DNA from: Paenisporosarcina sp. FSL H8-0542
GTDB lineage: Bacteria; Bacillota; Bacilli; Bacillales_A; Planococcaceae
Direction: 5' to 3'
NCBI RefSeq assembly: GCF_038632915.1
Contig: NZ_CP152050.1
Coordinates: forward strand, 3,069,001 to 3,133,000
Length of the DNA: 64,000 nt
In this document: positions 34,672-44,185 of the stretch, one piece after another
How the letters are laid out: each line of letters starts with the position of its first letter
How positions within the stretch are numbered: position 1 is the first letter of the stretch
Notes under the pieces: generated by a model
The model's database searches: none
What the model was told of the DNA's origin: nothing
Seen by the model: the letters and a program-made list of their open reading frames with translations, nothing else
Position numbers and translations under genes: made by a program

Positions 34672-34789
34672 CTCTTATCTTTCAGATCTCCACTAAAGAA
34701 ATCTGTAGGAATTAGCACCTTTGCAAGTTAATCACTTGCCGGTTGCCGGGCATCGCAGGGCCTAGTCCCTCCGCCACTCTAGATAAGAG
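34672..34789 (-). ncRNA. SAM-I (S-box) riboswitch aptamer
   Basis: Reading the minus strand: CTCTTATC (P1 5' strand), AGAGTGGCGGAGGGACTAGG, CCCTGCGATGCCCGGCAACC, GGTGCTAATTCCTACAG, and GATAAGAG (P1 3' strand). These are the conserved S-box segments in order. SAM binding would favour the terminator at 34617-34653 and shut off metY-metX-hom. Confidence 0.97.
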
Positions 34790-41641: not shown

Positions 41642-42868
41642 TTATGCTTTCAATAACGATTGGGTAATAGTAGGTAATATTATTTCTATCGTTGTTCCCT
41701 CATTTAATTTACTTTCAATTGTTAACTTACCGTTATGACTTTCGATTATCTTATAACAGGTCATTAGTCCAAGACCAGTACCCTTTTCCTTTGTTGTATA
41801 AAATGGCTCTCCCAGTGTTGGCAATCGTTCTGTTGGAATTCCGATACCTTCATCAATAATTTGAATAGAAATTTTATCTTCTTCTTTTTTCTTAACCTTA
41901 ACCTCAATACTTCCCCCCTGAGGCATGGCTTCGATTGAATTTTTAAGAAGGTTTAGAAAAACCTGCTTTAACTGATTTTTATCGCAACTCACCATTGGCA
42001 AATCACTTTCAAACTCAACAAAAATTTGAACATTGTTCAATATTGACTGAGTATTAATTAAGGTTACTATTTCTTTTATCAATACCGTAATATCTTGTTC
42101 TAGAAAAGTTGCTACGCTTGGTTTGGCGAGAACCATGAATTCACCTACGATTGAATTTATCCGTTCAAGCTCTGATTCTACAATATCAAAATATTCATCT
42201 TTGAGCTCATTGGACTTCAATAGATATATAAATCCTTTGATGGAAGTTAGGGGATTACGGACTTCATGGGCTATACCTGCTGCCATTTGACCCAACATAG
42301 CCAGTTTTTCTGACTTTTGGAGTTGCTGTTCGTTCTGTGCTTTTCTTATAGTGATATCCTTTCCAATTGAAAGGATTGCCTCTTTTTCACCAAAAACGAT
42401 ATACAATGAAGAAACTTCAAAAAAGAACATCGATCCATCAAAACGTTTCATTCTGTGTTCTATACTGTTTAACGGAAGTTTCTGTTTCATTGCCTGTTTT
42501 ACTCGTTCATGAATACGCTCTGTGTACTCGGGCTCAAAAAAGTCATGTATGGATTTTCCGATTATGTCTCCCATATTGGAAGCTCCAAACATGCAAACAG
42601 TGGCTTTATTTACATAAACAATCCTATTATCCTGATGGATAATAACTGATTCAGGCAATGAATCAATCAACCTTTTATAGCTTTCCCCACTAGACCGTGC
42701 CTGTTTTTCATAGTAACGAGCTTTATCATATTGCCTTCCAACAAGCCAAGCAATAAATGTAAATATAAAAAAGTCTATCGTAAAAAAAACCTCATAATTC
42801 ACAATCTTTTGAAAGGTAGTAAATGTTATCGAAATTAACACCAAAATAATTTGACCCGAATTATTCAT
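41642..42868 (-). CDS. PAS-domain sensor histidine kinase (sporulation-kinase-like)
   Basis: A 408-residue kinase. Two N-terminal hydrophobic segments (about 5-50), a PAS domain (about 70-185; VIIHQDNRIVYVNKATVCMFG), HisKA with phosphoacceptor His201 in GIAHEVRNPLTSIKG, and an ATPase domain with N-box LLKNSIEAMPQGG, DEGIGIP and GTGLGLMTCYKII. The H-box and N-box follow the KinA-E/NtrB type, so phosphorelay input is possible. No response regulator is adjacent. The ATG at 42868 follows AGAGGGA. Confidence 0.92.
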   Translation of the reverse strand: MNNSGQIILVLISITFTTFQKIVNYEVFFTIDFFIFTFIAWLVGRQYDKARYYEKQARSSGESYKRLIDSLPESVIIHQDNRIVYVNKATVCMFGASNMGDIIGKSIHDFFEPEYTERIHERVKQAMKQKLPLNSIEHRMKRFDGSMFFFEVSSLYIVFGEKEAILSIGKDITIRKAQNEQQLQKSEKLAMLGQMAAGIAHEVRNPLTSIKGFIYLLKSNELKDEYFDIVESELERINSIVGEFMVLAKPSVATFLEQDITVLIKEIVTLINTQSILNNVQIFVEFESDLPMVSCDKNQLKQVFLNLLKNSIEAMPQGGSIEVKVKKKEEDKISIQIIDEGIGIPTERLPTLGEPFYTTKEKGTGLGLMTCYKIIESHNGKLTIESKLNEGTTIEIILPTITQSLLKA

Positions 42869-43259
42869 TTTATCCCTCTTAAATAAGTATATTTGCAAAC
42901 AATTATTGTAAATTATTTATTCAACGATTTGACGATATATTTCTTTATCTATATCTTTTTCCACGATATTCCACTCTTACAAAAAGCTACTACTATTTAA
43001 TTCGACATTTTAACATTAAAACTCCTCTTTTCCTTTGAAAATTGCATATACAATATGTGAAATGCGCGTATCTATTTCATTATTTATTCTGTGCTATGTA
43101 GATAAGCAACTTCAAAAAATATCCTTTTTCAACTAACACGTATTTTCATATTAATATAACTACCCCAGTAATATTAAAGAAAGACTACTATTGTCACTGG
43201 TCAGTTAGTTGAAGAACAAAAGCCTCCACTTAATAATATTATCGCTTGGATTCTACGCT
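42869..43259. other. AT-rich intergenic stretch upstream of the PAS kinase
   Basis: About 390 bp with no supported gene. Near the kinase, TTTACA and TATACT on the minus strand could form a weak promoter with a short spacer. The rest shows no repeat, motif or convincing frame. Confidence 0.55.
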
Positions 43260-43417
43260 AAAAAAAATCCATGCACAAGTGCATGGATTCATAGTCTTGA
43301 CTAACACAACTTAACGATGAGGGGGGTTAAGAATGTGTTTTTATGATCAGCATCGATTTGGAGAAAAGTCGCTGACATGGCTTCTTCCCTAATTTTCAGA
43401 AAGATTGTCTTTGGTAT
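43260..43417 (-). ncRNA. Candidate Fur-regulated small RNA (FsrA-like)
   Basis: A predicted RNA of about 158 nt starting near 43417. It ends in a strong terminator: AATCCATGCA pairs with TGCATGGATT (43266-43289), then eight U (43260-43267). Before this lies a small hairpin, TTAAC-CCCCCTCATC-GTTAA (43311-43330), that shows a C-rich loop, the feature by which FsrA pairs with ribosome sites. A 25-codon frame lies inside. Size is larger than the 84 nt of Bacillus subtilis FsrA. Function is inference. Confidence 0.6.
43301..43378 (-). CDS. Possible 25-residue peptide inside the Fur-regulated RNA
   Basis: ATG at 43378 with AGGGAAG at 43384-43390 opens a frame of 25 codons (MSATFLQIDADHKNTFLTPL and five more), ending in TAG. 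Spacing is acceptable. The frame covers the C-rich loop, so translation and pairing would compete. It may be chance. Confidence 0.3.
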   Translation of the reverse strand: MSATFLQIDADHKNTFLTPLIVKLC

Positions 43418-43419
43418 AC

Positions 43420-43438
43420 GATAATGATAATCATTATC
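43420..43438. promoter_or_regulatory. Perfect Fur box between the small RNA and the second fhuF-like gene
   Basis: GATAATGATAATCATTATC is the exact classical 19-bp Fur consensus. It overlaps the minus-strand -10 and lies 49 bp before the fhuF-like start. Confidence 0.95.
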
Positions 43439-43452
43439 ACTAAATATGTCAA
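43424..43452 (-). promoter_or_regulatory. Sigma-A promoter for the candidate small RNA
   Basis: On the minus strand TTGACA (43447-43452), a 17-bp spacer and TATCAT (43424-43429). The -10 lies inside the Fur box, so Fur-Fe would block it. Confidence 0.82.
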
Positions 43453-43486
43453 CACTTTACCGGTTAATTTTTTGTATACTACATTT

Positions 43487-44185
43487 ATGACTACTTTAAC
43501 GAACGATCAAATCCGACAATTAAATATGTATAGCACTTATATCATTCCTCCTGCTCACCCACTGTTTACACGTAAACAAATGGAAGACATTGATTTCCTG
43601 GCAGTAGTACAAACAATCACGGGTATTAGCAACAAAACGGTTGCTGCTTCTTACCTTATGCGTCGCTATGGGATGTTTATATCGACACAATTTGTCATGC
43701 TGGCTACTTACGATGAATTATGGTTGGGACAACATGAAGATTTGATGTTTGCTGCTAATGTTGAATATGGAAATAAGGGTATCAGTATGTATATCGATAA
43801 GAAAGACTTTATGGATGTAGAGAACCTTCCTCGTGAAGCTCTCATACAGAAAATATTGAAGGAACAAACTTATTCATTGATCCTAGAAATTCGAAAGCAC
43901 TCTTCTGTCTCTCCTTTGACATTGTGGGAAAACGTTTTTGGATTTTTACTATGGCACTACTCTGTTCTTCTTGGAAATCCTGCGACTGAAAAGCAAGCTC
44001 GCATTGATTTGGAGATCTTAAAATCATCAAACGTTTGGGAAGGAATCGCAAATCATTCATTATTTAAAGCCTACTTAAAAGACCTTGAGCCAGCACAGCT
44101 TTTGAATTCTCCTGTACGAACTACATGTTGTTTCTCCAAAGATGTTCCGGGATTGCAAAAATGCGGTTTCTGTCCTCTTCAATAG
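43487..44185 (+). CDS. Second FhuF-like 2Fe-2S iron reductase
   Basis: A 232-residue protein ending TTCCFSKDVPGLQKCGFCP, with Cys-Cys-x10-Cys-x2-Cys as in FhuF. It shares with the gene at 38122 the LWENVFGFLLWHYSVLL segment and overall length, so they are distant paralogues. The frame runs up to 43424 through the Fur box; the ATG at 43487 is the sensible start but has no ribosome site. TATACT lies seven bases upstream, so a leaderless mRNA is possible though no good -35 is seen. Iron-repressed expression is expected. Confidence 0.85.
   Translation: MTTLTNDQIRQLNMYSTYIIPPAHPLFTRKQMEDIDFLAVVQTITGISNKTVAASYLMRRYGMFISTQFVMLATYDELWLGQHEDLMFAANVEYGNKGISMYIDKKDFMDVENLPREALIQKILKEQTYSLILEIRKHSSVSPLTLWENVFGFLLWHYSVLLGNPATEKQARIDLEILKSSNVWEGIANHSLFKAYLKDLEPAQLLNSPVRTTCCFSKDVPGLQKCGFCPLQ

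Follow-up and report, generated by a model that had tools for sequence, protein, structure and literature searches.

A candidate Fur-repressed iron-sparing small RNA encoded next to a fhuF-like gene in Planococcaceae/Caryophanaceae

FsrA of Bacillus subtilis (RF02273) is a Fur-controlled small RNA with a C-rich anti-Shine-Dalgarno segment and acts together with the chaperones FbpA, FbpB and FbpC. In the sections of the literature drawn on here, its length is given as 84 nt (PMC12871923) and its targets include sdhCAB and citB (PMC11257911). The same sections describe IsrR of Staphylococcus as a Fur-controlled RNA of 174 nt with three hairpins, a terminator and C-rich single-stranded regions, the targets of which include aconitase and succinate dehydrogenase (PMC9410917, PMC11257911); RyhB and PrrF of Gram-negative bacteria are likewise Fur-repressed and directed at iron enzymes (PMC9410917). 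Aconitase and succinate dehydrogenase are presented there as common targets of Fur-regulated RNAs (PMC11257911, PMC9410917), and a separate origin in several bacterial groups, with convergence on the same enzymes, is proposed for the iron-sparing RNAs (PMC9410917). No paper on such an RNA in Planococcaceae/Caryophanaceae was found among the open-access matches listed. Judged from its sequence and that of its relatives, the Paenisporosarcina locus described here very probably encodes a non-coding small RNA that is repressed by Fur, acts in trans in the iron-sparing response and has acnA/citB and sdhC as its targets.

The features of the locus are as follows, numbered in the window, i.e. the whole 64-kb stretch of DNA that was analysed.

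43424..43452, minus strand: sigma-A-type promoter TTGACA-17-TATCAT (11/12; TTGAC-type -35 visible in relatives)
43420..43438, no strand assigned: Fur box covering the RNA promoter -10 (0.03 matches within three mismatches expected in the window; at most three mismatches at 75/77 loci)
43260..43417, minus strand: predicted small RNA, ~158 nt (promoter, U run, fold, homologues)
43383..43404, minus strand: hairpin H1 near the RNA 5' end (fold; 5' hairpin in 30/32 relatives)
43347..43375, minus strand: hairpin H2, loop CUUUUCUCCAAA (43368-43357), complementary to the probable acnA/citB mRNA 5' end
43303..43339, minus strand: hairpin H3, loop CCCCCUCAUC (43325-43316), complementary to the sdhC Shine-Dalgarno region
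43260..43290, minus strand: intrinsic terminator with eight U (terminator hairpin in the folds of 32/32 relatives)
43487..44185, plus strand: divergent fhuF-like siderophore-iron reductase gene, 232 aa (TIGR03951; C-terminal CC-X10-C-X2-C)

The promoter (minus strand, 43452-43424) agrees with the consensus at 11 of 12 positions and scores highest among 11 promoter-like sites between 42000 and 45000; since shuffled versions of this region, scored with an equal threshold, average 11.5 sites, the promoter match alone is no evidence. The Fur box GATAATGATAATCATTATC is a perfect 19 bp element that overlaps the -10, and it is the single place in the window within three mismatches of such a box. With the RNA start inferred from the -10 and its end from the U run, the predicted transcript covers 43417-43260 (158 nt); the terminator stem lies at 43290-43265 on the minus strand and is followed by eight U at 43267-43260. 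A preliminary description made from this DNA had proposed the promoter, the Fur box that overlaps the -10, an eight-U terminator about 158 nt downstream, a hairpin exposing CCCCCUCAUC and a divergent fhuF-like gene, all of which were borne out, the hairpin by the predicted fold; the second loop, CUUUUCUCCAAA in H2, was absent from it. It had also placed a gene-free gap of 390 bp beyond the terminator. The next minus-strand gene encodes a PAS histidine kinase, and the gap has this length if the kinase starts at the in-frame ATG at 42868 but not if it starts at 42898. No reading frame conserved across the RNA homologues was found. A small peptide encoded in the RNA was rejected: a 25-residue frame in the window shrinks to 11-16 residues in three congeners, and the longest frames in other relatives vary in length and sequence.

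The fhuF-like product matches NCBIfam TIGR03951 with 51.7 bits (E 1.1e-13), which is below the curated cut-off of 63.85, and has no match in Pfam at E up to 0.01. Its C-terminal CC-X10-C-X2-C arrangement is one that we take to be typical of FhuF. The motif TATACT (window 43475-43489) ends six bases 5' of the fhuF-like ATG, which makes a leaderless mRNA probable for this gene; its -10 is preceded, and not overlapped, by the Fur box. Elsewhere in the window, a SAM riboswitch (RF00162, 85.8 bits) is found at 34672-34789 on the minus strand.

Like FsrA, the locus has a short RNA that ends in a terminator and a Fur box at its promoter; a C-rich stretch of the RNA is complementary to the ribosome site of sdhC in 15/15 genomes and, as in the iron-sparing class generally, pairing sites are predicted in mRNAs of iron enzymes, here acnA and sdhC. 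It differs from FsrA in its length of ~158 nt, its two loop motifs and its divergent fhuF-like neighbour. None of the Rfam 15 families matched the small RNA. The FsrA model RF02273 (threshold 80 bits) gave no match in the window at its gathering score, in 43000-43600 at E up to 10, in the whole genome at E up to 1 or at 19 RNA loci at E up to 0.5, whereas the positive control, a real FsrA (L164), scored 115.7 bits; PrrF reached 19.2 bits (E 0.91), far below its gathering score of 90, and RyhB had no match at E up to 10. Since RF02273 misses the locus and 18 homologues, we call the RNA FsrA-like in its predicted working and do not equate it with FsrA. It is most likely an unannotated counterpart of FsrA in another bacterial family and not the same RNA, i.e. 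a predicted addition to the functional class of iron-sparing small RNAs that the Rfam model does not place in the FsrA family. The term 'FsrA-like' used in the preliminary description thus stands for the predicted function (sdh and citB sites) and falls for the family. IsrR, compared by description only, resembles the RNA in Fur control, predicted here, in hairpins with a terminator, in a C-rich loop, and in aconitase and succinate dehydrogenase as targets, likewise predicted here; IsrR is described, in the part of PMC9410917 cited, with two Fur boxes and three C-rich regions, against a single Fur box here and one loop each with the C-run and with CUUUUCUCC. With RyhB and PrrF the RNA would share Fur repression directed at iron enzymes.

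All relatives of the RNA that were found belong to Planococcaceae/Caryophanaceae. Across 61 genomes, a DNA search returned copies 83-88% identical in three congeners; most of its other matches span the Fur box and promoter only, and a few extend into the RNA. An exact pattern of the two loops occurs in 32 of 261 family genomes and its reversed control in 0. In the named collection this pattern matched 103 stretches, 24 of them from Planococcaceae/Caryophanaceae, and 23 of these 24 carry a Fur box (at most three mismatches) that starts 58-79 bp before the H2 loop; the remaining one (L161) is truncated at the end of its stretch. The best box in the other 79 stretches has at least six mismatches, and these look like chance matches. 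Covariance model R1, built from ten sequences, matches 56/261 family genomes, and R2, built from 42, matches 103/261 in 13/19 genera, at least one of these (G274, locus L238) by chance and the weaker ones having been inspected in part. In its own genus, five of nine genomes have an R2 match and four have none. In a class-wide sample of 299 genomes R2 gave nine matches, namely eight family members and G445 (E=0.01), which was judged to be a chance match as it is antisense to a reading frame of more than 600 codons and is without a Fur box.

Two sets of matches were read individually. Among 20 weak or extra ones, 18 have a Fur box with at most two mismatches, the exceptions being L206 (chance) and L213, an extra RNA copy without a Fur box; among a further 23, 18 have such a box, four have boxes with 5-7 mismatches and L238 is a chance match. 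The four weak Fur-like boxes belong to tandem copies in genus g16 and stand at the same distance from the RNA as normal boxes. Over the 77 inspected loci, which leave out L206 and L238 (both judged chance), a Fur box within three mismatches is present at 75 and a divergent fhuF-like gene at 64 or more, a lower bound because the set includes short loci and loci truncated by the end of a contig. The preliminary description had proposed a covariance search in related genomes and had tied its reading to whether close relatives keep the C-rich loop and the terminator; the search did return homologues, and loops, terminator, promoter and Fur box are all kept.

The region 43257-43417 folds with a predicted energy of -38.6 kcal/mol, compared with a mean of -26.7 kcal/mol for shuffled sequences (z -3.1), and one of 200 shuffles was equally good. 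Single-sequence folds of 32 distinct RNAs contain the 5' hairpin in 30 cases, H2 in 30, H3 in 29, H2 and H3 together in 28 and the terminator in all 32. At least three of the five nucleotides of UCUCC in H2 are unpaired in 27/32 folds, and the H3 loop is open except for its first C in 28/32. A strict count of loop exposure on the same 32 gave 5 for H2, 3 for H3 and 0 for both, low because in H3 the outer C is paired with G and in H2 some U are paired with A. Under a softer criterion, devised after the stricter one, the counts were 30, 29 and 28. The motifs kept among relatives are CUUUUCUCC in H2 and C5-7UC in H3, and H3 carries CCCCCCAUAAU in two g11 loci. In the 32 RNAs the loop sequences are constant partly by construction, because the search pattern required them; loci found by the covariance models likewise keep CUUUUCUCC and the C-run, and the models too favour both motifs.

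The stems show compensatory changes. RNAalifold on a plain MAFFT alignment returned zero pairs and, as hairpin loop lengths vary among genera, the structure was tested by single folds, by arm swapping and on an alignment fitted to the model. For 29 distinct arm pairs, own arms paired better than shuffled ones (equalled in 0/2000 trials for H3 and 15/2000 for H2), although between some neighbouring genera foreign arms pair equally well. In the model-fitted alignment, which leans towards the structure and includes one chance row, double changes occur in 10/12 pairs, with 60 cells against 21 in shuffles and 0/500 shuffles matching. Kinship among the sequences inflates both the arm-swap and the covariation tests.

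Leaders of acnA and sdhC were examined in 15 RNA-bearing genomes from ten genera. All 15 acnA/citB leaders contain TGGAGA(A/G)AAG, also written TGGAGAAAAG, which is complementary to H2 and is expected by chance about 0.0004 times in a leader of 150 nt (a single occurrence in 368,864 control bases). In the Paenisporosarcina genome, the H2 loop and stem arm are complementary to the acnA leader over 15/16 nt (one mismatch), and, the RNA gene itself apart, no site in the 3.63-Mb genome is closer to the H2-complement 16-mer than this leader. The box starts 54-66 nt upstream of the start codon and, read by eye, directly follows a TATNAT -10 in 15/15 genomes, with TTTACT further upstream, so that it should form the 5' end of the mRNA. 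The predicted H2-acnA duplex (-28.6 kcal/mol) was compared with those of 60 window genes, where only the gene over the antisense strand of the RNA is stronger; the next genes follow at -27.6 and -27.5 kcal/mol, a margin of ~1 kcal/mol.

Read by eye, most of the 15 folds contain a predicted leader hairpin in which the acnA box is paired with CUUUUC. This 5'-terminal hairpin GAAAAG..CUUUUC after the -10 (L324-L338, most of the 15 genomes) is possibly a 5' stabiliser, and the place of the box in the hairpin could itself account for its conservation. The Shine-Dalgarno sequence of acnA is AGGGGG in 9/15 genomes and AGGAGG in 6/15 (genera g1 and g5). When the H2 site was blocked in silico, in a run without a shuffle control, Shine-Dalgarno accessibility fell by at least 0.1 in 8/15 leaders (7/9 of those with AGGGGG and 1/6 of the others) and stayed within 0.07 in the remaining leaders; in the Paenisporosarcina leader it rose from 0.17 to 0.24. 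This modelling fits a strand switch in some genera and gives no support for one in Paenisporosarcina.

In 15/15 genomes, H3 is complementary to the Shine-Dalgarno sequence in the sdhC leader, which reads GAGGGGG or AAGGGGG. In Paenisporosarcina, UGAGGGGGGU of sdhC pairs with ACCCCCCUCA of the RNA over 10 nt, and a core common to nine genomes is AGGGGGGU. The H3-sdhC duplex, at -22.0 kcal/mol, is stronger than those of all 60 window genes (next -18.5 kcal/mol). The RNA pairs slightly better with acnA of its own genome than with that of other genera (355/5000 permutations equally good) and no better with its own sdhC (1463/5000); since own-genome pairing is barely better or not better, co-evolution of RNA and target is not demonstrated. 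Totals of partial matches in the genome were 88, 31, 31 and 5, against 78, 29, 34 and 19 for reversed patterns, so that there is no clear genome-wide enrichment of sites. The sdhC site is one of the 88, recognized there only once its position was known, and with three mismatches to the 14-mer it is outside the five matches of the 14-mer search. Many genes with GAGGGGG sites, and most of those returned by the short-pattern target searches, appear by eye not to be iron-related. Of the targets suggested in the preliminary description, sdh and citB carry complementary sites in all 15 RNA-bearing genomes examined, and no support was obtained for the leu genes: the Paenisporosarcina genome gave one aconitase-family match only, and five secondary aconitase-family loci of other genomes gave one pattern match near a frame start and none at a leuC-type gene. 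Its idea of targeting through a C-rich loop covers half of the prediction, as the H3 C-run fits sdhC while H2 is the aconitase-directed loop.

A mechanism can be proposed on this basis. With iron present, Fur would occupy the box over the -10 and block transcription; when iron is short, the RNA would accumulate. The C-run loop of H3, complementary to the sdhC Shine-Dalgarno sequence GAGGGGGGU, would pair there and block ribosome binding, and the H2 loop with its 5' stem arm, complementary over ~15 nt to the acnA/citB mRNA at its probable 5' end, would open the leader hairpin and free the CUUUUC arm, which in several genera may cover the acnA Shine-Dalgarno sequence. H3 could also bind the acnA Shine-Dalgarno sequence where this is AGGGGG (9/15 genomes). 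The expected outcome is a reduction in aconitase and succinate dehydrogenase that spares iron. A stricter division of labour, in which H2 would serve the extreme 5' end of the aconitase mRNA by a strand switch and H3 the Shine-Dalgarno G-runs (sdhC alone, and as a second clamp on AGGGGG acnA), is a tentative model that we consider doubtful.

The RNA might be a true orthologue of Bacillus FsrA that has diverged past recognition. The two resemble each other in the promoter Fur box, in C-rich anti-Shine-Dalgarno segments (L164 likewise has CCCC segments) and in their main targets, predicted here, and homologues of FsrA are stated for Bacilli, Staphylococci and Listeria in the cited part of PMC12871923; the failures of RF02273 in this genome and at 19 loci, next to its strong control, the lack of a match of R1 to L164 at E up to 0.1 and the architecture (two loop motifs in ~158 nt, where FsrA measures 84 nt and L164 shows no CUUUUCUCC loop) make orthology quite improbable. 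It is also unlikely that this is a Fur-controlled RNA with other real targets, the acnA and sdhC matches being by-products of generic anti-Shine-Dalgarno loops. GAGGGGG Shine-Dalgarno sites are indeed many, the totals are not clearly above the reversed controls, the pairing is not clearly genome-specific and the H2-acnA margin is small, but the acnA site of H2 is not a Shine-Dalgarno sequence, beginning 54-66 nt upstream of the start codon and matching better than any other site in the genome except the RNA gene itself, and both genes carry sites in 15/15 genomes of ten genera. Divergence from the fhuF-like gene at 64/77 loci would suit a transcript that is a mere by-product of the fhuF promoter region, without function in trans; we give this hardly any credence, as the RNA has its own terminator with the next same-strand gene more than 300 bp further, its stems carry compensatory changes, and extra copies with Fur box and loops occur where no fhuF is seen. 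If the preferred reading of a Fur-repressed RNA acting on acnA and sdhC is true, an iron-sparing RNA with a conserved gene neighbourhood and a structure model is added for Planococcaceae/Caryophanaceae, and its two targets, predicted at the level of single base pairs, make convergent targeting of aconitase and succinate dehydrogenase testable in a new group.

Several genomes hold more than one copy. In genus g16 (L229, L230 and L231), two tandem copies of the RNA lie ~240 bp apart, an arrangement reminiscent of PrrF1/PrrF2; at least one copy of each pair, and both in L229, has a weak Fur-like box (5-7 mismatches). In genus g14 (L207, L213, L242 and L244-L247), second or third copies are present in several genomes with no fhuF-like gene seen, and all except L213 have a Fur box with at most two mismatches. 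In genus g13, a Bacillaceae-1 RNA (RF01690, 52.7 bits; L060, 1768-1834, plus strand) is located near the small RNA.
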